Positions 15,880 to 31,289 of a stretch of DNA of 64,000 nt are shown one piece after another. Origin of the DNA: Candidatus Manganitrophaceae bacterium (GTDB lineage Bacteria; Nitrospirota; Nitrospiria; SBBL01; Manganitrophaceae); contig JACQEZ010000015.1 in assembly GCA_016200325.1 (NCBI GenBank), positions 1 to 64,000 on the forward strand, given 5' to 3'. Position 1 is the stretch's first letter. The number at the start of each line of letters is the position of its first letter. Position numbers and translations under genes: made by a program. The notes under the pieces are model-generated. The model had not been told where the DNA came from, searched no databases, and worked only from the letters and a program-made list of their open reading frames with translations.

Positions 15880-16740
15880 TTATATCTTAAACCAAGGGGT
15901 CACCAAGACATATTTGACCCCCGCGAGCAGTCGCAAATAGATCTTCAGCGGCACCCCGACCATCGAGAGGAAGAGGAACATCATCAGATTGTAGCGGACG
16001 AACCCCAACGAGTTGTAAAACTTCCTCATAAAGATGAACGGAACGCCGAAACCGACCGCGTAATATCCGAGAAACAAAACCCAGGTCAACAGGTTCGCGA
16101 TCGTGATGCCGTAGCGGCCGAGGGTGACGAGCGGCGTCGCGCTCAATCCGAGCGTCTTTTGAAAGATGACCTCCAGATCGATGAGCCCTCCGGTGATCGC
16201 CTTGTGCTCATGCGGGTTGTCCCACGGCCAGTACCACGACCAATCCAAGCCCCGGAACCAGACGCCGACCACGATCAGAATGTACCAAAGTCCGAGTCCG
16301 AAGATAAAACCGAGGACGGCGAACTTTCTCTCGGAGAAGGTGTAGTATCCTTTGCCGCGCGGGTTCGGATCGATGTAAGGGAGCAGAACCAGCCCGACGA
16401 TGATCAAGGAAGGGAGGACCACCCCGGCCAGCCAGGGATCGAAATAGACCAGCAGCTCCTGAAGGCCCAAGAAATACCAGGGGGCCTTCGTCGGATTCGG
16501 CGTCGTGTCGGAGCTCGCCAGCTCTTCCAGCGGCGCGGGGGAGATAATCGAGAGGAAGAGGAGAAAAGCGGTCGCCGCCAAGATTGAAATCAGCTCGAGG
16601 TAGACCAGGTTCGGCCAGACCAAGACGTGGTCTTCCGGCCCCATCTTTTCAATCGCCGATTTCTTGATGAGCGCGGCCAGCCCGCCCGAATTTCCATCCC
16701 GCTTCGGAAGCGTTCCAAGCGTTGTTTCCTTTTCAGCCAT
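15880..16740 (-). CDS. Cytochrome b C-terminal subunit (subunit IV-like)
   Basis: A 286-residue membrane protein with about six helices. It contains APWYFLGLQELL, equivalent to the PEWY quinol-site region of cytochrome b/subunit IV, but with APWY in place of PEWY. Cyanobacterial subunit IV has about 160 residues. The extra length here is a C-terminal extension with two or three more helices, as in other Nitrospirota complexes. Together with the b6-like gene upstream it completes a split cytochrome b. The ribosome-binding site GAGGAAAAT is present. Confidence 0.88.
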   Translation of the reverse strand: MAEKETTLGTLPKRDGNSGGLAALIKKSAIEKMGPEDHVLVWPNLVYLELISILAATAFLLFLSIISPAPLEELASSDTTPNPTKAPWYFLGLQELLVYFDPWLAGVVLPSLIIVGLVLLPYIDPNPRGKGYYTFSERKFAVLGFIFGLGLWYILIVVGVWFRGLDWSWYWPWDNPHEHKAITGGLIDLEVIFQKTLGLSATPLVTLGRYGITIANLLTWVLFLGYYAVGFGVPFIFMRKFYNSLGFVRYNLMMFLFLSMVGVPLKIYLRLLAGVKYVLVTPWFKI

Positions 16741-16768: not shown

Positions 16769-17539
16769 TTAAAGGGGTCCCGAGAATCCGTCTTTTCGGA
16801 TCCGCCAGAAGTGAACCGCCATGAACAGCGCCATCACCAGCGGCAACCCGAGACAATGAAGCACGTAGAACCGAAGGAGCGCGCTCTGTCCGACCACCGT
16901 TCCACCGAGCAGCGCAAAGCGAACGTCGTTGTCGACCGTGACACCGAGCTCCGGCCCGAACGGCCCGGTATTTCCGACCAACGGGGTCGCTTCGGCCATT
17001 TTGCTTCCGACCGTCACCGCCCAGAGGGCCAACTGGTCCCAAGGAAGCAGATAACCGGTCCAGCTCATCACCAGGGTCACGACCAAGAGGATCACGCCGA
17101 CGACCCAGTTGAACTCCCGCGGCGGTTTATACGAGCCGGTCAGGAAGACCCGGGTCATATGCATCCAGACGGAGAAGACCATCGCATGGGCCGACCACCG
17201 ATGCAGGTTTCGGAAGAGGCTCCCGAAGTAGATCACCGTTCCCAAATCTTTAATGTCGTTATAAGCGCGCCGGGTATCGGGAACATAATAGAACATCAAG
17301 AAGACGCCGGTGATGGCGAGCATGACGAAGAAGAAAAAGGTCAGCCCCCCCAGACACCAGGTAAATTTAATCTTTAATGCACCGCGACGGACACGAACCG
17401 GGTGAAGATGAAGGATGACGTTGCTGAACATCACCAAGGCGCGGTTGGCATCCGTGTTCGGAAATCCATGACGGAAGATCGACTTCCAGGCCTGCGTCTG
17501 GGTGACGTTCTCCCGAATTTGATCAAGTAACTTGTTCAT
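16769..17539 (-). CDS. Cytochrome b6-like subunit with a probable heme c_i cysteine
   Basis: A 256-residue, four-helix cytochrome b N-terminal subunit that holds the two b hemes of the quinol:cytochrome c oxidoreductase. Ligand pairs are His113/His127 (HX13H in HRWSAHAMV...MH) and His228/His243 (HX14H); the longer second spacing is that of b6f-type complexes. Cys62 in WCLGGLT lies where Cys35 of cytochrome b6 (YCLGGIT) covalently binds the extra high-spin heme c_i, so this complex probably carries that heme too. AAGGAG precedes the start. It is encoded between the Rieske protein and the subunit IV-like gene. Confidence 0.92.
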
Positions 17540-17582: not shown

Positions 17583-18155
17583 CTAAATCTTCAAGAAAAA
17601 TGGAGGAACTTCTCGAGTCGCTTCGTCGACCATCAACCCTTCATCGGTCCCTTTTGGATCGGGGTCCTGACGCTGGTTGAAGTTGACGACAATCTGGCCG
17701 TCGACCGGGTCGAGCGCGACCCCCGCCCGCCAAAGAGTTCGAGGGGCCGGACCGCCGACCACGTTTCCGGTGACGTCGTAGATGCTCCCATGGCAGGGGC
17801 ACCGGAAACGTTTCTGGTCGTCGAACCAGTTGGGGGTGCAGCCGAGGTGCCGGCAGATCGCCACCAATACATAGAGCCCCCGTTCGTTTCGGACCACCCA
17901 GATCTGGCGCTCTTTCTTCAGCTTGTTGTCGACGCCGACCCCATACTCTTCCGGCTTTCCGATTTTAAAAACCGTCGGCGGCTCATAAAGGACGTTGGGA
18001 AACATATATCTGAGGGCGCCGACACCGGTCCCCCCGAGCGCCGCGGCAAACCCGCCCCAGCCGATTCCTAAACCCATGAGGGTAAAAAACCGCCGCCGGC
18101 TGACGTCTGCCTGTTGTGGATTCTGCGGACCCTCTTTCTTGCCACCGGGAATCAT
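17583..18155 (-). CDS. Rieske iron-sulfur protein
   Basis: A 190-residue protein. [10 protein letters not shown] at about residues 19-28 resembles a twin-arginine signal-anchor, followed by a Gly/Ala-rich helix. The [2Fe-2S] ligands are in CRHLGC and CPCHGS, with two Cys and two His, and the disulfide cysteines are also present. It would carry electrons from quinol at the cytochrome b subunit to the cytochrome c subunit on the periplasmic side. The ribosome-binding site GGAGGAGG lies just after a small hairpin at 18172-18189. It is the first gene of the bc-complex set. Confidence 0.95.
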
Positions 18156-18947: not shown

Positions 18948-19763
18948 TTAACTTTTCCGTGCTCCCGCTACCGGCGGATCCTCATAAGGGGTCACACCAT
19001 CCGGCTGGAGCGGCGGTCCTTTGAGGGTGGTCAGGTAGAGGGTGACCGCCAACGCTTCATCCTCCGACAATCCCAAATTCGGCATCCGCGTTTTTGGCTT
19101 AAACGATTGCGGATTGCGAATCCATCGGTAGATGAATTGGGGCTGCAGCATAAAACCGGCGCGCGATAAATACGGACCGAGCGTTCCCCCCTTCTTCCCG
19201 ACCATGTGGCAGCCGATGCAGCCATGCTCTTCGAACAGCTCCTTCCCCTGGTCGGTCAGCTCCTGCTTTTTCTCATCGTTGGGAACTTTCGACTCCATGA
19301 GGGTGCGAAATTCGTTCTCTTGAACGCCGGGAGCCCGAACCCGGGTCGTCGAATAGGGCTTCTCTTTATCAAACTTGACCTTCTCTCCCTTGTAAGGGTG
19401 GAGGGTTCGGATATAAGCGACGAGCGACCAGATCTCTTCTTCGGAGAAGACCTTTCCCCAGGCCGGCATCATTCCGGAGAGATCGACTCCGCGGCCCCCC
19501 TTGTCGATTACGTCGTAGATCTCCTTGTTGCTTAACTTGACCATATACTGCTCTTTCTTGTCGGTCAGGTCGCGCGCATGGGGATCGAGGTTCCTCGCAT
19601 TATACCCATCTCCCTGGCCGCTGTTCCCATGACAGGGAGTGCAGTACCGATCAAAGAGATGTCTCCCCTGAGAGACATGTTTGTCTTGAAAGAAAAACGA
19701 AAAGGCAACCCCGCCTGCAATAAGGACGATCGCCGGAATGAGCACCAATTGCAGCTTCTTCAT
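18948..19763 (-). CDS. Diheme cytochrome c
   Basis: A 271-residue exported protein with an N-terminal hydrophobic signal or anchor (MKKLQLVLIPAIVLIAGGVA) and two heme sites: CTPCH at about 41 and CIGCH at about 185. Each half has a late Met ligand candidate (MMPAWGK and RMPNLGL). The frame stays open to 19862, but ATG 19763 has a ribosome-binding site (GGAGGA) and avoids running into the upstream gene. The first module closely resembles modules of the tetraheme cytochrome at 30051-31289 (NLDP...DLT, EIYDVIDKGG, MPAWGK). It is probably a periplasmic electron carrier. Confidence 0.85.
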   Translation of the reverse strand: MKKLQLVLIPAIVLIAGGVAFSFFFQDKHVSQGRHLFDRYCTPCHGNSGQGDGYNARNLDPHARDLTDKKEQYMVKLSNKEIYDVIDKGGRGVDLSGMMPAWGKVFSEEEIWSLVAYIRTLHPYKGEKVKFDKEKPYSTTRVRAPGVQENEFRTLMESKVPNDEKKQELTDQGKELFEEHGCIGCHMVGKKGGTLGPYLSRAGFMLQPQFIYRWIRNPQSFKPKTRMPNLGLSEDEALAVTLYLTTLKGPPLQPDGVTPYEDPPVAGARKS

Positions 19764-19791
19764 TACTTCGCTCTTCCTCCTAAAAGAAACA

Positions 19792-21378
19792 TCATTTCTG
19801 CTTCCCGTTCCCGTTTCCATTTCTGTAGCTTCGGGAGATCCACCACTCCACCCCGACCACAACTAACAGAAAAAGGGTCGGATAGATAAAGCGATCTTTA
19901 GAGGCGGGGACTTCCAGGAGAATCGAATACCAGGCCGACAAAGAGCGTTGGGCGTCTCTCTCGCCGTTGGAGCCGTCCCAGGCGGTGAAGGCGATCGGAT
20001 AAAACTTCCCCGGCTCGATCTGCAGGTCGGTCTCTTTGTCTTCCGTGGTGAGCGCGCGTTTGAAGACCGCCCGGTACTGCCCGCTCTTATAGGTCCCCTT
20101 CCCTTTGAATTGCCAGTGCGACTCTTCTTGCGGCTTGATCCGAAGACCGACCTTGACCTCCGTGCCGGTCGCGTTGAATTCGTCGACCTTGTTGGTTCCG
20201 GCCGTCCACCGCGCGACATAAACCGGATGGGCCGGGTCTCCCATGATGAAATAGGGTTTCTCATTCCCCTCTTTCATCTTGGCCGGGAATTGGATCGCGA
20301 CGGCGTCATCAAAGATTTCGGGGACGGTCTCGCCGGCCGCCGGCGTCGCCACGCTCTTGGTCGGATCGTCCCAGATCACCAGCAGGGCAAAGTCTTTTGC
20401 GTTATACATCCCCTTGACGGTGACCATGTCGACGGTGGGGGTGAACATCCGGGGATCGATCGTCACCTGGCCGACCAGCGGAAAGCTATGCTGCTCCAGA
20501 CCCGCCCAGCGGGGATCGTCCGGATCATCGGCCACCTCGCCGGTCACCGGCTTCGCGACCACGGCGACCTTCCAATCGGGCGCGCCCGGATACTGAGAGA
20601 GAGAGTTGACGTAATTCGCCAGATTCCAGCTCTTCTCATTATCGAGGGTGCTGGCGAACGACGGCATCGGCGTTCCCATCAAGCCGGTATTGATCCGGGT
20701 ATAGATATCCTTCGGCGCATTCCCTCCGCGGAAGACCCACCCTTTGGTGAGGTTTCTCGGCTGAACGGGCCGGCCCCAATTGTCCTTCAGGGTCGGAGCG
20801 AGCGGGCCATTCCCCCGGCCTTCGTCTCCGTGACACATGATGCAGCCGACCTTGTTGAAGAGGTCCTTCCCCTTCTCGATGCTCTCCTTCGAAGGTTTGA
20901 TCTCGGCCCCGATGGTAATCTGCTTGGGTGTTTCGCTGGCAAACTGCGGGGCAAAGGTTTTGATGTATTGAACAACCGAGCGGATTTCGTTTTCCTTGAG
21001 AAGACTTTGCCACGCCGGCATTCCGGTCCCGGGAAGCCCTCTGGTCACCACTCGGACCAGGTCGTCATCATTCGGCACGCTTCCATGGGCGGTCGTTTTA
21101 TACTTGAACAGACCGCGGGTGAAGTCTCTGGGACGCGGTTTAAACCGCTCCGCCGCCGGGCCGTCTCCCGCGCCGGAAGGACCATGGCAGCCGAGACACC
21201 GTTTCTCATAAATGGCCTTCCCGAGCTCCATGCTGACGGTCGGCTTCTCCTCGGTCTTTTTCTCCTCCGCCTTCTTCGGCTCGGCGGGCGCCCCCTCTTC
21301 GGCCTGGCCCGACGTAGCAACGACCCCGAGAATCAACAAAAGCGGGAGGCCATATTTTCTGATCGCTGTGATTAACAT
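19792..21378 (-). CDS. Diheme cytochrome c with ethylbenzene-dehydrogenase-type heme domain (NxrC-like)
   Basis: A 528-residue protein. It has a signal peptide, a Pro/Lys/Glu-rich linker (about 28-48), two cytochrome c modules (CLGCH near 61 and CIMCH near 179), an EB_dh-like domain (about 300-490) of the sort found in gamma subunits of type II DMSO-reductase enzymes and in NxrC, and a C-terminal membrane helix (YPTLFLLVVVGVEWW). No alpha or beta molybdopterin subunit is encoded in the window. It could carry electrons from a periplasmic oxidation system into the cytochrome chain; the donor is unknown. Start supported by AAGGAAG. Confidence 0.75.
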   Translation of the reverse strand: MLITAIRKYGLPLLLILGVVATSGQAEEGAPAEPKKAEEKKTEEKPTVSMELGKAIYEKRCLGCHGPSGAGDGPAAERFKPRPRDFTRGLFKYKTTAHGSVPNDDDLVRVVTRGLPGTGMPAWQSLLKENEIRSVVQYIKTFAPQFASETPKQITIGAEIKPSKESIEKGKDLFNKVGCIMCHGDEGRGNGPLAPTLKDNWGRPVQPRNLTKGWVFRGGNAPKDIYTRINTGLMGTPMPSFASTLDNEKSWNLANYVNSLSQYPGAPDWKVAVVAKPVTGEVADDPDDPRWAGLEQHSFPLVGQVTIDPRMFTPTVDMVTVKGMYNAKDFALLVIWDDPTKSVATPAAGETVPEIFDDAVAIQFPAKMKEGNEKPYFIMGDPAHPVYVARWTAGTNKVDEFNATGTEVKVGLRIKPQEESHWQFKGKGTYKSGQYRAVFKRALTTEDKETDLQIEPGKFYPIAFTAWDGSNGERDAQRSLSAWYSILLEVPASKDRFIYPTLFLLVVVGVEWWISRSYRNGNGNGKQK

Positions 21379-21547: not shown

Positions 21548-22291
21548 CTACTCCCAGGTTCTCGGAGAGAACCCGGTGTACTCCGAGAGAAAAAGAATCA
21601 CCTTCCAGCGCTGCTCATCCGACAGCATCGCCTCCCACCGGGGCATCGCCGAGCTCCAGGGGGTCGATTCCTGCGGAAGCCCGATCCCGCCGGTGCTGAT
21701 TCTCCAGAAGAGAAACGATTCCTGCAGCATCGGGAGGACCGTCGGGTCTTGGAAATTCGCCGGTTTCGGATTGAACCCGTGCGCATAAATGCCTTCTCCG
21801 TTGAGGAGGTCTCCGTGACAGAAGATACAGTTCCGATAATAGATCTCTTTTCCATCGGCGACATACTTCTTGAAAAGCTCTTTGTCTTCGACACGATAGG
21901 GATTGTAGAGACCGGTAAATTCCACCGGAGGGGCGGGATGGATGACCCGCGAGTCCAACGGGGGCTGCATCTTTTTATTAAACTTTTCGTACGACCCGAA
22001 CCAGACGAGCAGCGGCATGGCAACCAGGACGGCATATCGCCCTCCCTTGGCCATCCCTCCTTCGACACCCCCTCCCAAAAAGGTATAAAGAGGAGTAATG
22101 ACGGCATCTTTGATATTGTAAAAGAGGGTCAAATACATGATCGCCCCGGCCAGGGCCATGCACATGTACATGAAAATGACGCTGAACGGGAGAGGAGGAC
22201 GAACCACATACTTCAGGACCAGATAGAATCCAAGCATTGCGAGGGCAACCCTGATTCCGGGAGGAACCCTCTCTTTTTTTATCTGCGCCAT
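21548..22291 (-). CDS. Membrane-anchored monoheme cytochrome c
   Basis: A 247-residue protein with about three N-terminal membrane helices (residues 12-30, 35-58 and 80-98) and a C-terminal cytochrome c domain with one heme site, CIFCH near 153. MPRWEAMLS...QRWKVI resembles the end of the monoheme cytochrome at 29442-29972, so the two are related. The start has a strong site (GAGGGG). It sits between the NxrC-like gene and the oxidase genes, and is probably a membrane-bound electron relay. The roughly 170 bases between it and the NxrC-like gene hold no gene. Confidence 0.8.
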   Translation of the reverse strand: MAQIKKERVPPGIRVALAMLGFYLVLKYVVRPPLPFSVIFMYMCMALAGAIMYLTLFYNIKDAVITPLYTFLGGGVEGGMAKGGRYAVLVAMPLLVWFGSYEKFNKKMQPPLDSRVIHPAPPVEFTGLYNPYRVEDKELFKKYVADGKEIYYRNCIFCHGDLLNGEGIYAHGFNPKPANFQDPTVLPMLQESFLFWRISTGGIGLPQESTPWSSAMPRWEAMLSDEQRWKVILFLSEYTGFSPRTWE

Positions 22292-22316: not shown

Positions 22317-22775
22317 TTAAAACGAATTTTTTTGTCCCACTTCCGCCGGGCGGACCGTCACCGCTCCCCCCTGACTCTGAACGAAAGCGATCACCGTGAG
22401 CAGCTCCTGCTCCGAGAGGCCGATCGGCGGTTTGTTGACCGTCGGCATCCGCGCCGGATATTTTTTCGGCTCGGCAGAATCAAAATCAAGCTTGATATAG
22501 GCTTCGGGTTTCGTCAGCGTCTCATAGAGAAATTCCCGCGTCAGACGCGCACCCGCTCCCGCCAAATCGGGACATTTGCCACGCCCTTCTCCTCCGAGGG
22601 TATGGCAGAGGGCGCATTGACCTTTCCCGAAAAAAATTTTCTGCCCGACGTTGACTAACTCTTTCTCGCTTGAAACAGCACCCAGATCCAGCCTCTCTTC
22701 AACCCGGGCGCTGCAGGCGGCGATCCATCCCAAAATTAAAATAATTCCGAAGCCGATCCCTCTTTTAATTTCCAA
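22317..22775 (-). CDS. Monoheme cytochrome c lipoprotein, paralogue of the oxidase c-domain
   Basis: A 152-residue protein with a signal sequence and a lipobox-like WIAAC, suggesting lipid attachment at about residue 21, followed by one heme site, CALCH at 54. It is strikingly similar to the C-terminal cytochrome domain of the adjacent bd-like oxidase (shared FFGKGQCALCHTLG, GARLTREF, YETLTKP, PARMPT and NKPPI). It starts with TTG at 22775, only 11 bases after the oxidase stop, so it is probably translated with the oxidase. It may deliver electrons to the oxidase, or be a duplicated domain that became a separate subunit. Confidence 0.82.
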   Translation of the reverse strand: MEIKRGIGFGIILILGWIAACSARVEERLDLGAVSSEKELVNVGQKIFFGKGQCALCHTLGGEGRGKCPDLAGAGARLTREFLYETLTKPEAYIKLDFDSAEPKKYPARMPTVNKPPIGLSEQELLTVIAFVQSQGGAVTVRPAEVGQKNSF

Positions 22776-22786
22776 CGGAGCTCTTC

Positions 22787-25186
22787 TTATGACCCTTTGT
22801 GCTCGACCTCTCGGTGGCTTTGGATCAAGCTCTTCTGAGGGGCCGGCTCCCCACTGGCCGGCTGCGGCTGCGGCGCCGGGGCAGCTTGATCAATCGCCAA
22901 CTCCGATGGGTTAACCGTCACCTTGCCCCCCAAGCTTTGGACAAAAGAGATTACTGTAAGCATCTCCTGCTCCGAAAGCGCGATCGGCGGCTTGTTAATC
23001 GTCGGCATCCGCGCCGGAAACCTTTTAGGCTCAACCTCTTCGAAATCAAGCTTGATATAGGCATCGGGCTTCGTCAGCGTCTCATAGATAAATTCCCGCG
23101 TCAGACGCGCACCGGCATTCTGCAAACTTGGGCAACGCCCCGCTTCCGCTCCAAGCGTATGACAGAGCGCGCACTGCCCCTTGCCGAAGAACATATTCTG
23201 GCCGATTCTGGCCAGGTCTTTATCGTTTTTGATTGCCGCGATATCGAGCTTCTCTTTGGTCGGAGGAAGTCCAATGCTCTGGGGAACTGAAAAACCGACC
23301 CAAGTAAAGATTGCTAAAAATCCAACGACGACCGCTACAACCTTCCAAAAATGATTCGGCCCGGCCGCCGCCACCGGTTTTGGCGCGTTGACCTTCTCCG
23401 GCAGAGAGACCAGCCATTCGAAGAACGGCGCGATAAAAAAGTATTGTGTGGAAAAACCATTATAACGGATGGTGCGGGTTGTGACGAAGAAGATAAAGGC
23501 AACCAGAGAGAAAAATAGAAGGGTATTCACAGACCAAAGGAAGGCCGCCGTTCCGAGCGGAGGGGTATAGGCATACGGGGTGGTGTCTTCCACCACGCCA
23601 TAGACATGCCAGTGAACGCGCGAGGCGGAACGGGCATACCCCATCAGGCTCATCGTCAGGACCACCGTAATGGCATTGAGAACCAAGGCGTATTGGGAGC
23701 TGGGCGGCATGACCCCCCACGTCATCTTTCCGGTCATCTTCGCCCCTCGGAGCATCATCCCGGTCATCGGAGTCACTAAAATCAGCACGCTGATGACCGC
23801 TAAAACCTGAGCGACAGAAAGATAATTGACTCGGATAATGGACGGAACAAAATAGCCGTAAATTCCCAGGACGATTACACCAATGATCGCAACCGTAAAG
23901 AGGACCGCTTCAAAGCCGCGGGCCGCCTTTCCCCAGCGAACGGTCACCTGCTGGTTCGCCCTCCAATAAAGAAGGAAGCTGATGAAGGTGCTGAGGATCA
24001 TGATATTAACCACGGTGAGCTTCGCAGACATGACCCCGAAGACGCCGAGGATGGGGTGATGACTTCCCCCCATCGCGCGCGCCTCCTCCAGGCTGGCGAC
24101 CAAGCTGTGCGGAGTCATCCAAACCCCTAGACAAGCGAGAAGGGTGAAGAGGATAATCATAATGTATGGTTTATATTTAATTCCATCCGATGTTCTTTTC
24201 AGCAGGCCTTGCCAGAGATAATAGTTAGAACCGAGGAACAGCACCCCAATCAGCAGCGCCTGAAGGATAAATAACCAGGAGAGAATGCCCCCCATCAAGG
24301 TAATTCCCATCTGCTGGTTATATTGATAGACCTCTCGCATCAGCCAATAGCCGGCGAACGGCAACGGGAGAAGTCCGAAGATTCCGATGAAGTTCCCGAT
24401 ATATCCCATCCAATCGTAATGCTCTCGCTCTTCTTGGGTTTTCGCCCCCAGATACCGAACTCCCGCATAGGCTCCGCAGACAAACCCTCCCAAGACCACA
24501 TTGGCAACGATCCGATGAATATTAACCGGCCACCAAGTCGGATTATTCGCGGCGGCCCAGGTCCGCTGCAAGGCAGTCATGGAGTCATTTAAAACCACCG
24601 GGCTCGCCTGGAAAGAGGCCCAGGCGCTCGGCACCATCATCACGAAGAGGCCGACGAAGTTCAGCATGAATCCGACAAAAATGTGGAGTCCCTTAAGCCG
24701 GCCCCGCTGCATGACATCCCACTTGGCCGCATAGATATAGAGCGCAATTCCTTCCAGGAGGAAAAGGAAAAGATAAAAATAAAAACTGGGCAGAAAAACC
24801 CCTACCAGAAATGTCCACAATTTGGGATATAGAACGCGAAGGGAAAAAAGAAAAATAATCCCCAGGGTGGCCGTCATCTCAAAACAAGCGGTGATCAGGA
24901 TTGTAAACTCTTTGGCAAGATGATCGTATCGACGATCTCCCGACCAAACCCCGATCACCTCACAGAGCCAGGCGAAGATTGGCACGCCCAAAACGAAGCC
25001 ACCAAATAGTAAATGGACCTGGGAGATCACCCAAATCAGATTACGACTACTGATCCAGGAGGGATCGCGGTATTCCACGGCGGCGGGGGTCTGAGCGAAG
25101 AGAGACGTCCAAGGCAGCAAGAGTAGAACCGCGAAAAGGATTCCCGCCCCTACAACCGGTTGTCGGATCACTTTTTTGAAGGTCAT
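22787..25186 (-). CDS. Cytochrome bd-like terminal oxidase with C-terminal cytochrome c domain
   Basis: A 799-residue protein: a long membrane part (about 14 helices, residues 10-640) related to CydA, then a periplasmic cytochrome c domain with CALCH at 672-676. Conserved-looking histidines lie in ISQVHLLFGG, VNIHRIVANV and MTPHSL, as for the b-heme ligands of bd oxidases. No separate CydB-like gene lies beside it. Such bd-like oxidases with added c heme are known from Nitrospira and relatives and may accept electrons from cytochrome c. I chose ATG 25186, 8 bases after GGGGAGG, over the longer frame to 25210. The catalytic activity is not proven by sequence. Confidence 0.8.
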   Translation of the reverse strand: MTFKKVIRQPVVGAGILFAVLLLLPWTSLFAQTPAAVEYRDPSWISSRNLIWVISQVHLLFGGFVLGVPIFAWLCEVIGVWSGDRRYDHLAKEFTILITACFEMTATLGIIFLFSLRVLYPKLWTFLVGVFLPSFYFYLFLFLLEGIALYIYAAKWDVMQRGRLKGLHIFVGFMLNFVGLFVMMVPSAWASFQASPVVLNDSMTALQRTWAAANNPTWWPVNIHRIVANVVLGGFVCGAYAGVRYLGAKTQEEREHYDWMGYIGNFIGIFGLLPLPFAGYWLMREVYQYNQQMGITLMGGILSWLFILQALLIGVLFLGSNYYLWQGLLKRTSDGIKYKPYIMIILFTLLACLGVWMTPHSLVASLEEARAMGGSHHPILGVFGVMSAKLTVVNIMILSTFISFLLYWRANQQVTVRWGKAARGFEAVLFTVAIIGVIVLGIYGYFVPSIIRVNYLSVAQVLAVISVLILVTPMTGMMLRGAKMTGKMTWGVMPPSSQYALVLNAITVVLTMSLMGYARSASRVHWHVYGVVEDTTPYAYTPPLGTAAFLWSVNTLLFFSLVAFIFFVTTRTIRYNGFSTQYFFIAPFFEWLVSLPEKVNAPKPVAAAGPNHFWKVVAVVVGFLAIFTWVGFSVPQSIGLPPTKEKLDIAAIKNDKDLARIGQNMFFGKGQCALCHTLGAEAGRCPSLQNAGARLTREFIYETLTKPDAYIKLDFEEVEPKRFPARMPTINKPPIALSEQEMLTVISFVQSLGGKVTVNPSELAIDQAAPAPQPQPASGEPAPQKSLIQSHREVEHKGS

Positions 25187-25308
25187 GGGAAACCTCCCCT
25201 TAAATCTCAACGGCTCCAGAGATCCGTTTGCGGTTTATTGACGTTGCCATTCCTAAATGAATCGCTGCCTTTGAACAATAGACGATTCGACTCGTCGGAG
25301 GATCATTC

Positions 25309-25674
25309 TTAATCTTTGTAGTAGTCCTCGCGCTTCATCAACCCGGCCCCCAAGCCTTTAGAGACGAAGATAATCAACACGGTGGCGATCAGGCCATAGA
25401 CTGCGCTGAACCCCGGGATCGAATCTCCGATAAAGGTGACATGCTCCCGGGGAACGAAAAAGTCGGCCACCACCAGAATCCCGAGCGTGGCATAGAGGGG
25501 GGTCTTCATTCTTTGAATCTGCCCCGGTTTGCCGAAATACTTTTCAAGCTGCAGGCCGACCCCCTTCTGATCCCCAGCGTGGTTTGACGCCTGTCTTCCG
25601 CTGTGATCGGTCCCTTTTTTAGGAATCGATCCTTCCTTATGGGTGGAGCTGGTCTGGTCGGTATGCGGATTCAT
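25309..25674 (-). CDS. Small two-helix membrane protein, paralogue A
   Basis: A 121-residue protein with a hydrophilic, Ser/Thr/His-rich N-terminal half and two membrane helices (about 65-80 and 88-105). It is clearly a paralogue of the protein at 27204-27572: both share the pattern IPLY/TPLY, LGxLV, DFxVPREH, FIGDSIPGFSA, IATxLIIFVSK and GLMKxEDYY. Each copy lies directly downstream of an antiporter-like gene. The family was not recognised. It may be a small subunit pairing with the antiporter-like protein. The ribosome-binding site is weak. Confidence 0.7.
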   Translation of the reverse strand: MNPHTDQTSSTHKEGSIPKKGTDHSGRQASNHAGDQKGVGLQLEKYFGKPGQIQRMKTPLYATLGILVVADFFVPREHVTFIGDSIPGFSAVYGLIATVLIIFVSKGLGAGLMKREDYYKD

Positions 25675-25702
25675 GAACGGCCTGTTTAAAACCTCTTTAA
25701 AG

Positions 25703-27211
25703 TTAAAAACGCTTGGTCAGCCAGAGGAAAGCGGCCGTCCCTTTTCGATAAAACCAATCGGTGTCCAGGCTGATCTTGTTTTCCAAATGGAATTTGCTCA
25801 AGAAAAAGACGAATCCCAAAGCGGTCGCGCAGAGGAGCTGTAAAGAGCCGACCAGATGTTCCAAGGTATAGGGATGGTACTCCACCGGAAAAGGAAGGAG
25901 CCGATAGAGCAGGCCCGGCCACACGCCGAATAAAATACAGAGAGAGGCGGCCAACCCCATCGCAAAGATCATATTTTTAGGAGGATCGGCCGCCGGGATC
26001 TTCTTGTCCTCTCCCAAAAACACGGCGTAGGGAAGCTTGAGCGTGGTCGAGAGAAACGTTCCGGCGGAGGCGAGCGTCAGGAGCAAATAGGCCCAGGTCA
26101 GATTCGGCTCGACCGAAGCGGCGGTAATCACCATCGATTTGCTGATGAATCCGGAGAGCAACGGCACCCCGGAGATGGAGAACCCGCCGATCATGAAAAG
26201 GATGAAGGTCAGCGGCATTGTCCGATAAAGCCCCCCGAGCTCGGAGGCCTTCCGTTTTCCGGTCATAAAAACGACCGAGCTCATCCCCATCATCAACAGC
26301 CCTTTATAAATAATATGCGCATAGGCGTGGGCCACGGCGCCATTGAGGGCGAGTTCCGTTCCGATTCCAACCGCGGCGACCATGAAACCGACCTGGCTGA
26401 TGATATGGTAGGCGAGCAATCTTCGGATGTTGTTCTCGAGCATCGCATAGATCACCCCATACAGGGTCATCGTCACCCCAAGCGCGATCAAAATCTTTGT
26501 TCCGGGAAAGCCCCGCACCAAAACATAGACCGCGGTCTTGGTGGTAAACGCGCTCAAGAAAACAATTCCTGCGATGGTCGCTTCCGGATATGCGTCGGCC
26601 AGCCATGCATGGAGCGGCGGCACCGCCGCATTCAAAAGGAATCCAATGAGGATCAGGGTCGGCCCCAAGCCTTCGTGGGGAAACGCGTTGAAGGCAATTC
26701 CGCCGCCGCCCGCCGCGTAGATGACAATGCCTCCCAAGAGACAAAGTCCACCGGCGATATGGACCAACAGATAGCGCATTCCGGCCGCGCTCGACGACTT
26801 AAACCCGCCGAAGAGGATCAGAAAGACCGAAGAAAACGCCATGATCTCCCAAAACAAAAAGAGGGTAAAGAGGTCCCCGGCAAAGGTCACCCCCAAGGCG
26901 CTTCCGGCATAAATGAACGCAACAATCTGCTCCCTTTCATCCTTCAGATGAAGGGCGTAGACCATCCCGATAAAGGTGATGAGGGTAAAAACATAACCGA
27001 AGACGAGACTGAGACGGTCGACCCGCCCGAAGATCAACTGCTGTCCCATGAAGGACATCGTGCCATGATTTCCTTCCGAGACGATCAGAAGAGAGAGGAA
27101 ACCGAGCGCCGGCGCGCCGAGAAGGATCGCCTGCTTTGCTTTTCCTTTGACGAAAAGAAGAAGAACCGCAGCGAGGAAGAAGAGGGCGGTGGGATGAATC
27201 CACTCAATCAT
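25703..27211 (-). CDS. NuoL/MrpD-like antiporter subunit 1
   Basis: A 502-residue polytopic protein of the proton-translocating antiporter family (NuoL/M/N, MrpA/D), with about 14 helices and Lys/Glu-containing transmembrane stretches such as LFWEIMAFSSVFLILFGG and YHIISQVGFMVAAVG. It lies in the oxidase locus, away from the nuo operon. I chose ATG 27211 because GGAGG lies 7 bases upstream; this gives an 8-base overlap with the preceding small membrane protein, and ATG 27223 is an alternative. It may add ion translocation to the oxidase complex. Confidence 0.85.
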   Translation of the reverse strand: MIEWIHPTALFFLAAVLLLFVKGKAKQAILLGAPALGFLSLLIVSEGNHGTMSFMGQQLIFGRVDRLSLVFGYVFTLITFIGMVYALHLKDEREQIVAFIYAGSALGVTFAGDLFTLFLFWEIMAFSSVFLILFGGFKSSSAAGMRYLLVHIAGGLCLLGGIVIYAAGGGGIAFNAFPHEGLGPTLILIGFLLNAAVPPLHAWLADAYPEATIAGIVFLSAFTTKTAVYVLVRGFPGTKILIALGVTMTLYGVIYAMLENNIRRLLAYHIISQVGFMVAAVGIGTELALNGAVAHAYAHIIYKGLLMMGMSSVVFMTGKRKASELGGLYRTMPLTFILFMIGGFSISGVPLLSGFISKSMVITAASVEPNLTWAYLLLTLASAGTFLSTTLKLPYAVFLGEDKKIPAADPPKNMIFAMGLAASLCILFGVWPGLLYRLLPFPVEYHPYTLEHLVGSLQLLCATALGFVFFLSKFHLENKISLDTDWFYRKGTAAFLWLTKRF

Positions 27212-27572
27212 AACGTCCTCCATAGTAATCCTCTGACTTCATCAACCCGCGCCCCAGAAATTTGGAGACGAAGATAATCAGCAGCGTGGCGATCAAGGCA
27301 TAGAGGGCGCTGAAACCGGGGATCGAATCCCCGATAAAGACGGCATGTTCTCGGGGGACTAAAAAATCGATCAATACCAGAGTACCGAGCACGCCGTATA
27401 GCGGGATCGTGATCTTTTGAATCTGCTCCGGCGTGCCGAAATCTCTCCCGAAAGAGATGCCCCGTCGATCTTGCTGAACGGGAAGCGGACTCGGTGCGAT
27501 CGCTCTTTTCGACCGATTCTCGATCGGGTTGGAAGGGGCGCCGGAACGCAATTTATTCGTCTGCAAATTCAT
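27204..27572 (-). CDS. Small two-helix membrane protein, paralogue B
   Basis: A 122-residue protein, paralogous to the gene at 25309-25674 over the last 75 residues (DFLVPREHAVFIGDSIPGFS region, LIIFVSKFLG, GLMKSEDYY). The N-terminal third is polar and basic and not conserved between the copies. It overlaps the upstream antiporter-like gene by 4 bases (ATGA) and the downstream one by 8, so translation of the three is coupled. No known family was recognised. Confidence 0.7.
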   Translation of the reverse strand: MNLQTNKLRSGAPSNPIENRSKRAIAPSPLPVQQDRRGISFGRDFGTPEQIQKITIPLYGVLGTLVLIDFLVPREHAVFIGDSIPGFSALYALIATLLIIFVSKFLGRGLMKSEDYYGGRYD

Positions 27573-29125
27573 CGAATCACGAGTTTAATCAGGTCCAATA
27601 AAAAGTCCGGGTAAATTCCCAAGAGCACCGAAACCACGGCACAGAGCAGCAAAGGGACCACCAAGAAGTAAGAAGGCTCTCGGATCGGCCCGGTGAACGC
27701 GTGGGCACCGTGTGAATGGGGGTCGTGATCTTGGGCTGCGGCCGCCCCGAGGCTCTGCGGGACCGGATGAAGTCCTTTTTGAACCTCCTCCGCCGTCTCC
27801 GGCGCCCCTTCAAAAAAGGCCTTGTGAACCACCGGGAGGAAATAGCCGGCATTTAAAAGAGAGCTGGCCAACAGCACAAAAATGAAAGGGAGCTCTTGCG
27901 CCTCCATCGAGCCGGTCATCAGATACCATTTCGTCAAAAAGCCGGAGACGGGAGGGACCCCGATCATGCTGAGCGTGGCAAGGGCAAACGCGGTCATCGT
28001 CCAGGGCATCTTCCGCCCGATCCCCGCCATTTCAGAAATATTGGTCTTCCGCGAGGCGACATAAATCGACCCCGCGCAAAAGAAGAGGGTGATCTTTGCA
28101 AAGGCATGGTTGGCGATGTGCATAATTCCGCCGGTCATCCCGCTCGGCGTCAAAAGAGCCCCCCCTAAGATCATGTAAGAGAGCTGGCTCACGGTAGAAT
28201 AGGCCAATCGCGCTTTGAGGTTGTCTTTTGTGAGGGCATAGATTGATGCCATGACGATCGTAAATGAGACGACGAAGCCGGTCATGACCCCGAGGTTCAA
28301 CGACTTCATCAGCTCCACACCGAAGATATTAAAAATAATTCGGAGGATGCAGAAGACCCCGGTGTTCACGACCGCCACCGCATGGAGGAGCGCGCTCACC
28401 GGCGTGGGGGCCACCATGGCGGAGGGAAGCCAGCCATGAAAGGGCATGATCGCCGCCTTGCTCAGTCCCGCCAAAAAGAGAAAAAAGGTGATGATCAGAA
28501 CCGTACTACCGACGCCGGGGGGAAAGACGCCGCCGGCCTTAAACGTGAAGGTGTCGGAGAGATTGTAGGTCAAGAACGTGGCGGTGACAAAGAACGCTTT
28601 GGTCGTCGCCAAGAGATAGAAGAGATATTTGTTTCCTGCCGCGTACGCTTCCTTCGTGCCGTGATGGGTGACCAACGGATAGGTCACGAAGGTGATGAGC
28701 TCATAAAAAACAAAAAGGGTCACCAAATTGGCTGAGAAGGCGACCCCGAGGGTGGCGGAGAGTGTAAGGGCAAAACAGGTATAGTAGCGGGTCTGGGAAT
28801 GCTCGTTGAGCGAGCGCATGTAGCCGATGGAGTAAATAGTGGTCAGAATCCACAAAAAGGAAGCGGTGGTTGCAAAGAGAAGCCCCAGCGCATCGACCCG
28901 AAATTCAATGGAGACGCCGGGGAAGAGGGAGAAGAGGTTATAATGAAGCTTGTTCCCCGCGAGGACCGCCGGAATCATGGTGAGGACAATGAAGAACTTT
29001 AAGACCGCCGTAACGAGGGAACACCCTTCCCGGAGGTTCGGGTCCTTACGGGTTGCAATAATGAGCAGCGCCCCCACCAAAGAGATGGCCACGGCCAACA
29101 AGGGCTTGATCGATTCAATTTCCAT
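27569..29125 (-). CDS. NuoL/MrpD-like antiporter subunit 2
   Basis: A 518-residue polytopic protein of the NuoL/MrpA/MrpD family, with about 14 helices. The sequences FVFYELITFVTYPLVTHHG and LARLAYSTVSQLSYMILGG-like regions hold the conserved Glu and Lys/His ion-channel residues. A long hydrophilic loop near residue 440 (PHSHGAHAF) is unlike subunit 1, so the two are not recent duplicates of each other. The start has a very strong ribosome-binding site, AAGGAGGT. The 4-base overlap with paralogue B shows tight coupling. Confidence 0.86.
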   Translation of the reverse strand: MEIESIKPLLAVAISLVGALLIIATRKDPNLREGCSLVTAVLKFFIVLTMIPAVLAGNKLHYNLFSLFPGVSIEFRVDALGLLFATTASFLWILTTIYSIGYMRSLNEHSQTRYYTCFALTLSATLGVAFSANLVTLFVFYELITFVTYPLVTHHGTKEAYAAGNKYLFYLLATTKAFFVTATFLTYNLSDTFTFKAGGVFPPGVGSTVLIITFFLFLAGLSKAAIMPFHGWLPSAMVAPTPVSALLHAVAVVNTGVFCILRIIFNIFGVELMKSLNLGVMTGFVVSFTIVMASIYALTKDNLKARLAYSTVSQLSYMILGGALLTPSGMTGGIMHIANHAFAKITLFFCAGSIYVASRKTNISEMAGIGRKMPWTMTAFALATLSMIGVPPVSGFLTKWYLMTGSMEAQELPFIFVLLASSLLNAGYFLPVVHKAFFEGAPETAEEVQKGLHPVPQSLGAAAAQDHDPHSHGAHAFTGPIREPSYFLVVPLLLCAVVSVLLGIYPDFLLDLIKLVIR

Positions 29126-29441: not shown

Positions 29442-29972
29442 TTATGGCTCAACCGATACTTTGATCTCCTTATGCTCGTGCGACTCCGGCTTGTTTCCAT
29501 GGGACCAGGTATGTTCGTAGGCGATGATCTTCCAGCGTTGCTCCTCGGTCAACTTTTCTTTCCATGCCGGCATCTTCGTCTTGGAAACCCCTTCCGAAAC
29601 CCTCCAGAACCAGTAGCTGTCCGAATATTCGTTTATCTTCTTGCCGACGCGAAAGTCGCGGGCGCCCCGCTGTTTGGGCCGATCTTTTTCTTTATCAATG
29701 GCGTGACAGGTAGAACAGCCTTCCTTAACCTCTTCTTTCTTTCCCTTGTATTCAAACTCGAGGGTGGCGGTCTCAAAAAGCTTTTTCCCTTCCTCTATGA
29801 TCTTCGGATCGGTCCACCAGCCCTTCGGCATATGCTTGTCGGCATAGACCTTCGGAACCGGCTTCAACGGCTTGTCTTCCTCATCATCGGCCGCGGCGAC
29901 AAACGCCGGAGCGACCAGAACAGCAACGGCAACCAAACTCAAAAGAAAAAAGCGGAATTCGCGTTTCGTCAT
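29442..29972 (-). CDS. Monoheme cytochrome c, periplasmic
   Basis: A 176-residue protein with a cleavable signal (MTKREFRFFLLSLVAVAVLV, predicted cut after AFVAAA) and one heme site, CSTCH near 87. A Met ligand candidate lies in TKMPAWKEKLT. Its C-terminal part (WFWRVSEG, EEQRWKIIAYE) resembles the anchored cytochrome at 21548-22291. The ribosome-binding site GAGAGGAAAAG is present. It is transcribed in the same direction as the oxidase/antiporter genes and is a likely soluble carrier to that complex. Confidence 0.85.
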   Translation of the reverse strand: MTKREFRFFLLSLVAVAVLVAPAFVAAADDEEDKPLKPVPKVYADKHMPKGWWTDPKIIEEGKKLFETATLEFEYKGKKEEVKEGCSTCHAIDKEKDRPKQRGARDFRVGKKINEYSDSYWFWRVSEGVSKTKMPAWKEKLTEEQRWKIIAYEHTWSHGNKPESHEHKEIKVSVEP

Positions 29973-30050: not shown

Positions 30051-31289
30051 CTAAGAATGTGGCCCGGCGGTCCCTTTCTCTTGTTTCTTATCTTGACTAT
30101 TAAAGCGATCAAGCGTGTGACATGCAACACAATTTTTATCTTTGACTAATTTTTCTCCCTTCGCCACCAGATCGGGGCGGGCCGGAGCCGGCTCAGAGAC
30201 GGTCGCGACCTGGGACATCCCTCCGCCGACACTGTAGATGTAAGCGATGAGCGAGCGGATCTCCGGGTCGGGAATCCCGAAGTTCGGCATGTTCACATCG
30301 GGCCGAATCGCCTGCGGATTTTTCAGCCAATAAAAGACCCATTCCGGCCGCAGCCGCTTGGCCGCTTCTGAGAGATCGGGGCCGACGACACCCCCCGCCC
30401 CCGCGTTGGCGGTCTTGTGGCAAGCATCGCAGGCATATTTGTCGGTAAAAAGCCGTTTTCCTTTTTCTACTTCGGCCGGGTCTGAAAGATTCGCCCCGGA
30501 CAACGGGGAAGCGGAAATCCCATCGTCTTTTTGTGTCATCAAGAAGGTGGTCAGGGCGGCCACTTCTTCGTCGCTTAACTGAAAATTGGGCATCTTTGTT
30601 TTTGTCAGCGGAACATAGCCGACGGGACGAATCCGTCCCGGATCTTTCAGGAATTTCGAGAGCCACTCCCGATTTAACTTGGTTCCCTCATGGCCGAGGT
30701 TCGGCGCCAGCGTCGGATGCTGCCCCTGTTTGATATGGCAGACCTGGCACTCGGCCTTCCCTTCCCGCCGCAGATCGGAGACACGAACCTCCCTGGAAGA
30801 CTCCGCGGAGCCCTTTTTATTTAAGGTGCGGATATAGGCGATGAGGTCGCGAATATGATCACCGGAGAGGGTCTTTCCCCAAGGAGGCATCGAGACGGAG
30901 AGTTCCACTGCCCCGCCCCCCTTTTCTATGACTTCATATATTTCATTGTCGGAAAGGCCCTGGACTTCTTCGCTGGTCAAATCGGAAGGGTGTGGATCGA
31001 GGTTGTCTGCGTTGACGCCGTTTCCCTTTGCGGAAAGGCCATGACAGACGGCACAGTAATGCTTAAAAACACGCTTCCCTTCTGCAGCGTTCCCCTTTGC
31101 CTGGAACGAAGGAGCAGACGGAGCAGGGGATTCTTTTTTTATATTTTTTGCGGGAGCCGCCTCAGAGAGAGAAGCGGCAAAAAAAAGGAAAGAAAGGAGG
31201 CTTGCTAAAAGAACCGCTCTTTTATTAAACAATCTTATCCCCTTATCACTGGATAATGAAGTGCCAAAACCATCCCCGGACATCGACAT
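30051..31289 (-). CDS. Tetraheme cytochrome c with repeated modules
   Basis: A 412-residue exported protein with four heme sites: CAVCH, CQVCH, CDACH and CVACH. The first and third modules each carry a Met-containing segment (MPPWGK and MPNFGI), and a third such segment (MPNFQL) follows the second heme, which indicates internal duplication. The first module matches the diheme cytochrome at 18948-19763. The ATG at 31289 has no ribosome-binding site. A TTG at 31232, preceded by AAGGGG and followed by a good signal peptide (FNKRAVLLASLLSFLFFAAS), is a likelier start. A flexible Pro/Ala linker follows the signal. It is the most upstream member of the cytochrome run. Confidence 0.83.
   Translation of the reverse strand: MSMSGDGFGTSLSSDKGIRLFNKRAVLLASLLSFLFFAASLSEAAPAKNIKKESPAPSAPSFQAKGNAAEGKRVFKHYCAVCHGLSAKGNGVNADNLDPHPSDLTSEEVQGLSDNEIYEVIEKGGGAVELSVSMPPWGKTLSGDHIRDLIAYIRTLNKKGSAESSREVRVSDLRREGKAECQVCHIKQGQHPTLAPNLGHEGTKLNREWLSKFLKDPGRIRPVGYVPLTKTKMPNFQLSDEEVAALTTFLMTQKDDGISASPLSGANLSDPAEVEKGKRLFTDKYACDACHKTANAGAGGVVGPDLSEAAKRLRPEWVFYWLKNPQAIRPDVNMPNFGIPDPEIRSLIAYIYSVGGGMSQVATVSEPAPARPDLVAKGEKLVKDKNCVACHTLDRFNSQDKKQEKGTAGPHS

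Follow-up and report, generated by a model that had tools for sequence, protein, structure and literature searches.

Under the name terminal oxidase 2 (TO_2), Yu et al. 2022 (PMC9040806) described a gene cluster of Candidatus Manganitrophaceae that combines a bd-like oxidase with cytochrome b genes and a pair of MrpD-like subunits. The parts of that paper that deal with this cluster call TO_2 restricted to Manganitrophaceae, and they mention the green complex I of rhizobia, where a pair of MrpD-like subunits replaces NuoL. Bd-like oxygen reductases of the OR-N type (CydAA') are known from Nitrospirales and Nitrospinota (PMC12342949, PMC10839748), and oxygen reduction by the bd-like group is regarded as putative (PMC8026999, PMC10839748).

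We analysed a stretch of 64,000 nucleotides (the window) from the 4.2 Mb genome of a Candidatus Manganitrophus species, which belongs to the family and genus from which TO_2 was described. The window oxidase adjoins two MrpD-like genes; the window cluster is TO_2 as characterized in those parts of the published text, and its core is not new. The original prediction of an ion-translocating oxidase complex is therefore not a new idea, but its substance holds in part, in that oxidase and antiporter genes behave as one genetic unit and pump residues are largely kept. The locus bears on energy conservation in Nitrospirota that use high-potential donors such as Mn(II), nitrite and ammonia. Many such Nitrospirota lack ordinary heme-copper oxidases.

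The oxidase locus

Six genes on the minus strand (29125-22317) encode AntA, small A, AntB, small B, the bd-like oxidase and a monoheme cytochrome c, each exactly where it had been predicted. A Pfam scan places this set within a longer same-strand cluster. Upstream lie two cytochrome c genes, one tetraheme and one monoheme; downstream follow more cytochromes c, a protein of the alternative NxrC type, a Rieske protein and a cytochrome b in two parts. The cluster reads as follows:

30051..31289, minus strand: tetraheme cytochrome c with four CXXCH motifs (Pfam, gene maps)
29442..29972, minus strand: monoheme cytochrome c (Pfam)
27569..29125, minus strand: AntA, MrpD/NuoL-like antiporter subunit, 518 aa (Pfam, NCBIfam, residue alignment)
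27204..27572, minus strand: small A, helical hairpin protein, 122 aa (ORF, structure prediction)
25703..27223, minus strand: AntB, MrpD-like antiporter subunit, 506 aa, likely start 27211 (NCBIfam, alignment)
25309..25674, minus strand: small B, second copy of the hairpin protein, 121 aa (ORF, comparison with small A)
22787..25210, minus strand: bd-like oxidase with C-terminal heme-c domain, 807 aa, first Met at 25186 (Pfam, alignments)
22317..22775, minus strand: monoheme cytochrome c similar to the c domain of the oxidase (Pfam)
21548..22291, minus strand: monoheme cytochrome c (Pfam)
19792..21378, minus strand: two cytochrome c domains and an ethylbenzene-dehydrogenase heme-b domain, alternative NxrC type (Pfam)
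18948..19862, minus strand: diheme cytochrome c (Pfam)
17583..18155, minus strand: Rieske iron-sulfur protein (Pfam)
16769..17539, minus strand: cytochrome b, N-terminal part (Pfam)
15880..16740, minus strand: cytochrome b, C-terminal part, petD-like (Pfam)

According to gene maps, the tetraheme cytochrome c upstream is a conserved cluster member in the same genus and in the marine sister clade (f5), which, judging by the isolate names OFTM, probably includes the Oslofjord tunnel genomes (PMC11442690), marine relatives discussed in parts of PMC9040806. Candidatus Manganitrophus sp. GAC4 (G004, CP114561.1), of the same genus, carries the same cluster; there, apparent frameshifts, which are probably sequencing errors, interrupt the genes for the oxidase, AntB and a cytochrome (L073, L040). 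A promoter and terminator scan of the locus yielded little above shuffles and was uninformative.

The oxidase matches PF01654 with 43 bits and contains a single CALCH heme-c site at residue 680; Pfam and NCBIfam matches agree with the prediction of an oxidase with its own c heme in line with two NuoL/MrpD-like proteins. Its H66 takes the position of the CydA heme ligand H19 in alignment. A candidate b558 ligand is H232, read from a motif and the end of one alignment; the full alignment instead puts CydA H186 on H264. At the quinol-loop positions K252 and E257 of E. coli CydA the oxidase has S341 and a gap, in a region of low similarity, and no CydB gene was found among the Pfam-scanned cluster genes. 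With a fused heme-c domain and no quinol loop seen, the predicted entry of electrons from cytochrome c is likely. The cluster contains one bd-like gene, and the genome gives at least three bd-like matches. Oxidase homologues in the rest of the class are 55-65% identical, and some loci (L160, L161) show overlaps of 1-4 bp between oxidase and antiporter genes. The oxidase also has close relatives that occur without antiporters; thus, the pump is not needed for its chemistry. An AlphaFold model of the oxidase built from four sequences had a mean pLDDT of 38 and was discarded.

The antiporter cassette and its small hairpin protein

Both antiporter proteins match PF00361 (AntA with 172 bits, AntB with 135 bits), and both pass curated NCBIfam models for monovalent cation/H+ antiporter subunit D: AntA matches NF006236 with 711 bits (cut-off 663) and AntB matches NF009310 with 690 bits (cut-off 564). 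Alignment identifies E142, K223, H248, H336, H340, K344 and K399 of AntA as equivalents of NuoL pump residues, and all of these are kept across 19 oxidase loci, apart from a single residue at each of two positions. E126, K229, K307 and K362 of AntB are kept in all 13 oxidase-linked AntB proteins, and the equivalents of NuoL E144, K342 and K399 are invariant in both antiporters of the oxidase loci. As judged from these alignments, the pump residues are intact in AntA and largely so in AntB.

Oxidase-linked AntB departs from its relatives in two respects. The equivalent of NuoL H338 (residue 303) is an asparagine in 11 of 13 oxidase-linked proteins, which belong to separate lineages, but a histidine in the window protein, in all 16 AntB from Mrp loci and in 59 of the 61 from complex I. 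In addition, oxidase-linked AntB is 506-535 aa long (leaving out the frameshift-split L073), compared with medians of 595 aa in complex I and 609 aa in Mrp loci; the match of the window AntB (P0004) stops at model position 502 of 584. Alignment shows that the missing stretch is the C-terminal arm, which is kept in complex I, where it ties the antiporters together; among the three settings it is lost only beside the oxidase. Because of the lost arm and the asparagine, AntB may be altered in oxidase loci. The NuoL TM7 lysine, by comparison, has no equivalent in AntB in any setting (Asn198).

Small A and small B are 67% identical over 80 aa and share the motifs DF[F/L]VPREH and FIGDSIPGFSA, as originally observed. 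Structure prediction gives small A two helices (residues 48-71 and 87-110, pLDDT mostly 75-88 there) and an N-terminus without fixed structure, and one Lys and one Tyr are invariant in the C-terminal part of the aligned family. The family had been described as unrecognised, and a profile search of PDB, Pfam and NCBIfam returned no relative and no named model, but only chance matches such as ATP synthase subunit C. The prediction that a copy of the small protein follows each antiporter is correct for the window, but among oxidase loci this arrangement occurs in this species only: same-genus relatives have a single copy after AntB in gene maps, and most other loci have a single copy between AntA and AntB. 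Remnants of small A were sought in the AntA-AntB gap of the same-genus relatives and none were seen. Two Mrp loci (L108, L121) contain two AntB-like genes with a small gene before each, an independent doubling of the small protein.

The trio AntA-small-AntB was found in three settings among the mapped relatives: in complex I, in the gap between nuoK and nuoM; in Mrp loci; and in bd-like oxidase loci. Of 105 AntB genes we assigned 61 to complex I, 16 to Mrp and 14 to oxidase loci and left 14 unassigned, proportions that are not a census since the sample comprises the best 80 matches of one AntB scan plus chosen relatives. The small gene adjoins AntB in 99 of the 105, mostly between AntA and AntB. 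By their record names, the hosts are Nitrospirota, Thermodesulfobacteriota, Myxococcota, Pseudomonadota, Planctomycetota, Acidobacteriota, Verrucomicrobiota, Nitrospinota and methane-linked archaea, that is, about eight bacterial phyla plus archaea; the oxidase-locus setting occurs in Nitrospirota. The small protein had been predicted to be a partner of the oxidase. This was not borne out, as it accompanies AntA and AntB wherever the cassette occurs, and we reject it as an oxidase subunit: it tracks AntB.

The gene overlaps noticed in the window recur across phyla, 4 bp in 51 of 78 AntA-small junctions and 8 bp in 80 of 96 small-AntB junctions, and are therefore not due to chance. In the window the 4-base overlap is exact, and the 8-base overlap holds with AntB starting at its second Met (27211), as in relatives. 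Antiporter genes elsewhere without the oxidase had been named as evidence against the complex. Such genes do exist, in complex I and Mrp loci, but this does not refute the coupling; it indicates a portable cassette.

Two further loci of the same genome are worth recording. A complex I locus (L039, C1:398000-417000) encodes AntA, an AntB of 627 aa, NuoN and two NuoM-like proteins, five antiporter-type subunits in all, with a small protein copy between AntA and AntB, and matches the published Complex_I_3. At another site (L069, contig C3, 5551-11934), the inorganic-carbon transporter DabA lies in two overlapping reading frames, a frameshift or a fusion, next to a protein of 969 aa in which two stretches match antiporter domains.

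Shared inheritance and repeated recruitment

The trees of oxidase and AntA have 14 of 15 splits in common across 18 loci (random maximum 4 in 5000). Within the same clusters AntB shares 7 of 10 splits with the oxidase and alternative NxrC shares 5 of 8, whereas cytochrome b and Rieske share 1 and 2 of 7, although these two short control proteins are also less well resolved in trees. Concatenated Rieske and cytochrome b sequences group the loci largely by genus code. They reject the oxidase topology (p-AU 2e-7 and 3e-5), and oxidase plus AntA reject the Rieske grouping (p-AU 7e-8); because the tested groups were picked after the trees had been seen, these values are somewhat flattering, but the likelihood differences are large. 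These results suggest that oxidase and pump move as one heritable block, separate from the neighbouring bc-type genes. Thus, the predicted oxidase-antiporter unit is supported at the genetic level; linked genes can share a history without touching.

Oxidase-linked AntB falls in three places in the AntB tree, and a single clade is rejected (lnL difference 276, p-AU 4e-37). Thus, the coupling arose more than once, with at least two recruitments. A single joining of the cassette to the oxidase, which the AntA tree on its own would allow, is thereby rejected. In four loci of clade f5 (L153-L156), an antiporter of about 600 aa replaces AntB and the small protein in the same oxidase cluster, so that the oxidase keeps two antiporters. 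The two examples of this protein that were scanned passed no NCBIfam cut-off.

The set of bd-like oxidase, AntA and AntB also occurs in four genomes of the same class but another order (G031, G036, G076 and G242) and in a marine Nitrospirota bin (L136); the AntB of G036 was found by a scan of class genomes, and a later map labelled its locus otherwise. This contradicts the restriction of TO_2 to Manganitrophaceae as worded in the TO_2 parts of PMC9040806, since the set is present outside both family and order. It nevertheless stays rare: at E 1e-100, AntB was found in 27 of 247 class genomes. In G076 (L161), which has the order oxidase-AntA-small-AntB, there is also a strong AMO match (E 1e-96), and because of this match we consider G076 to be probably a comammox Nitrospira.

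A model and its place among known systems

We lean towards a cytochrome-c-fed oxidase of the bd superfamily with a two-antiporter, ion-translocating arm as the best explanation of this locus. Periplasmic cytochromes c would pass electrons to the heme-c domain fused to the oxidase, and from there they would move on to the bd-like core and its hemes, the probable site of oxygen reduction. Redox turnover would drive H+ or Na+ through AntA and AntB, and a large ion gradient could make the machine run in reverse. In this model the physical coupling of oxidase and antiporters, the ion and the direction are inference.

The published TO_2 proposal, as set out in the relevant parts of PMC9040806, has the ion-motive force consumed: electrons from Mn(II) or cytochrome c go partly to oxygen and partly to the quinone pool, and ion influx through AntA and AntB drives quinone reduction. 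The Rieske protein and cytochrome b of the cluster could indeed reach quinone. However, their history differs from that of oxidase and AntA, cytochrome b is of other length and placed apart outside the order, and no quinol-loop residues are seen in the oxidase; we therefore consider this proposal unlikely, though credible.

It is also conceivable, but in our judgement decidedly improbable, that AntA, the small protein and AntB form a separate Na+/H+ antiporter merely co-expressed with the oxidase, for instance exchanging H+ for Na+. The matches to subunit D models and the presence of the same cassette inside Mrp loci agree with this. Against it, no match to MrpC, E, F or G was found in the window cluster, the cassette is more frequent in complex I than in Mrp loci in our sample, and the AntB arm is lost only beside the oxidase. 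The missing TM7 lysine and the loss of the H338 equivalent from most oxidase-linked AntB could be taken to mean that the antiporter subunits are structural or degenerate and move no ions. We think this very improbable, given the near-complete pump residues of AntA and the four residues kept in every oxidase-linked AntB.

If the ion-translocating oxidase is real, a complex-I-type pump arm on an oxidase would be a new way of coupling oxygen reduction to ion transport and would explain part of how Nitrospirota on high-potential donors conserve energy. A wider claim, which we advance tentatively but take seriously, is that ion-pumping oxygen reductases exist in a third kind that has no kinship with the heme-copper oxidases. 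On this view, a bd-superfamily oxidase acquired an antiporter arm of the complex I type repeatedly within Nitrospirota, a probable comammox Nitrospira among them, and the complex I, Mrp and oxidase versions of the arm would share the hairpin protein as an undescribed subunit.

Compared with canonical cytochrome bd (CydAB), the window system has no detected CydB or quinol-loop residues, the latter in a low-similarity alignment. It shares with the OR-N type CydAA' reductases a bd-superfamily core without quinol loop and a presumed cytochrome c donor, but differs in its fused heme-c domain, its antiporter genes and the lack of a second bd-like subunit within the mapped window cluster. The green complex I of rhizobia has a trio homologous to AntA-small-AntB, in which the 4 and 8 bp overlaps recur and AntB is about 56% identical. 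There, however, the trio lies between nuoK and nuoM and AntB has its C-terminal arm, whereas here it lies beside an oxidase, with no nuo genes next to it in 16-32 kb of the window. The small gene of the rhizobial complex is annotated as 'hypothetical protein', and the hairpin protein appears to be an overlooked subunit of this and related complexes. The window species also has two small copies, and the text of PMC9040806, in its parts on TO_2, mentions no small subunit, separate recruitments, lost AntB arm or shared inheritance. Thus, what is added here to TO_2 is the small partner of a widespread cassette, the loss of the AntB arm, repeated coupling, inheritance as a block and a distribution that extends outside the family.
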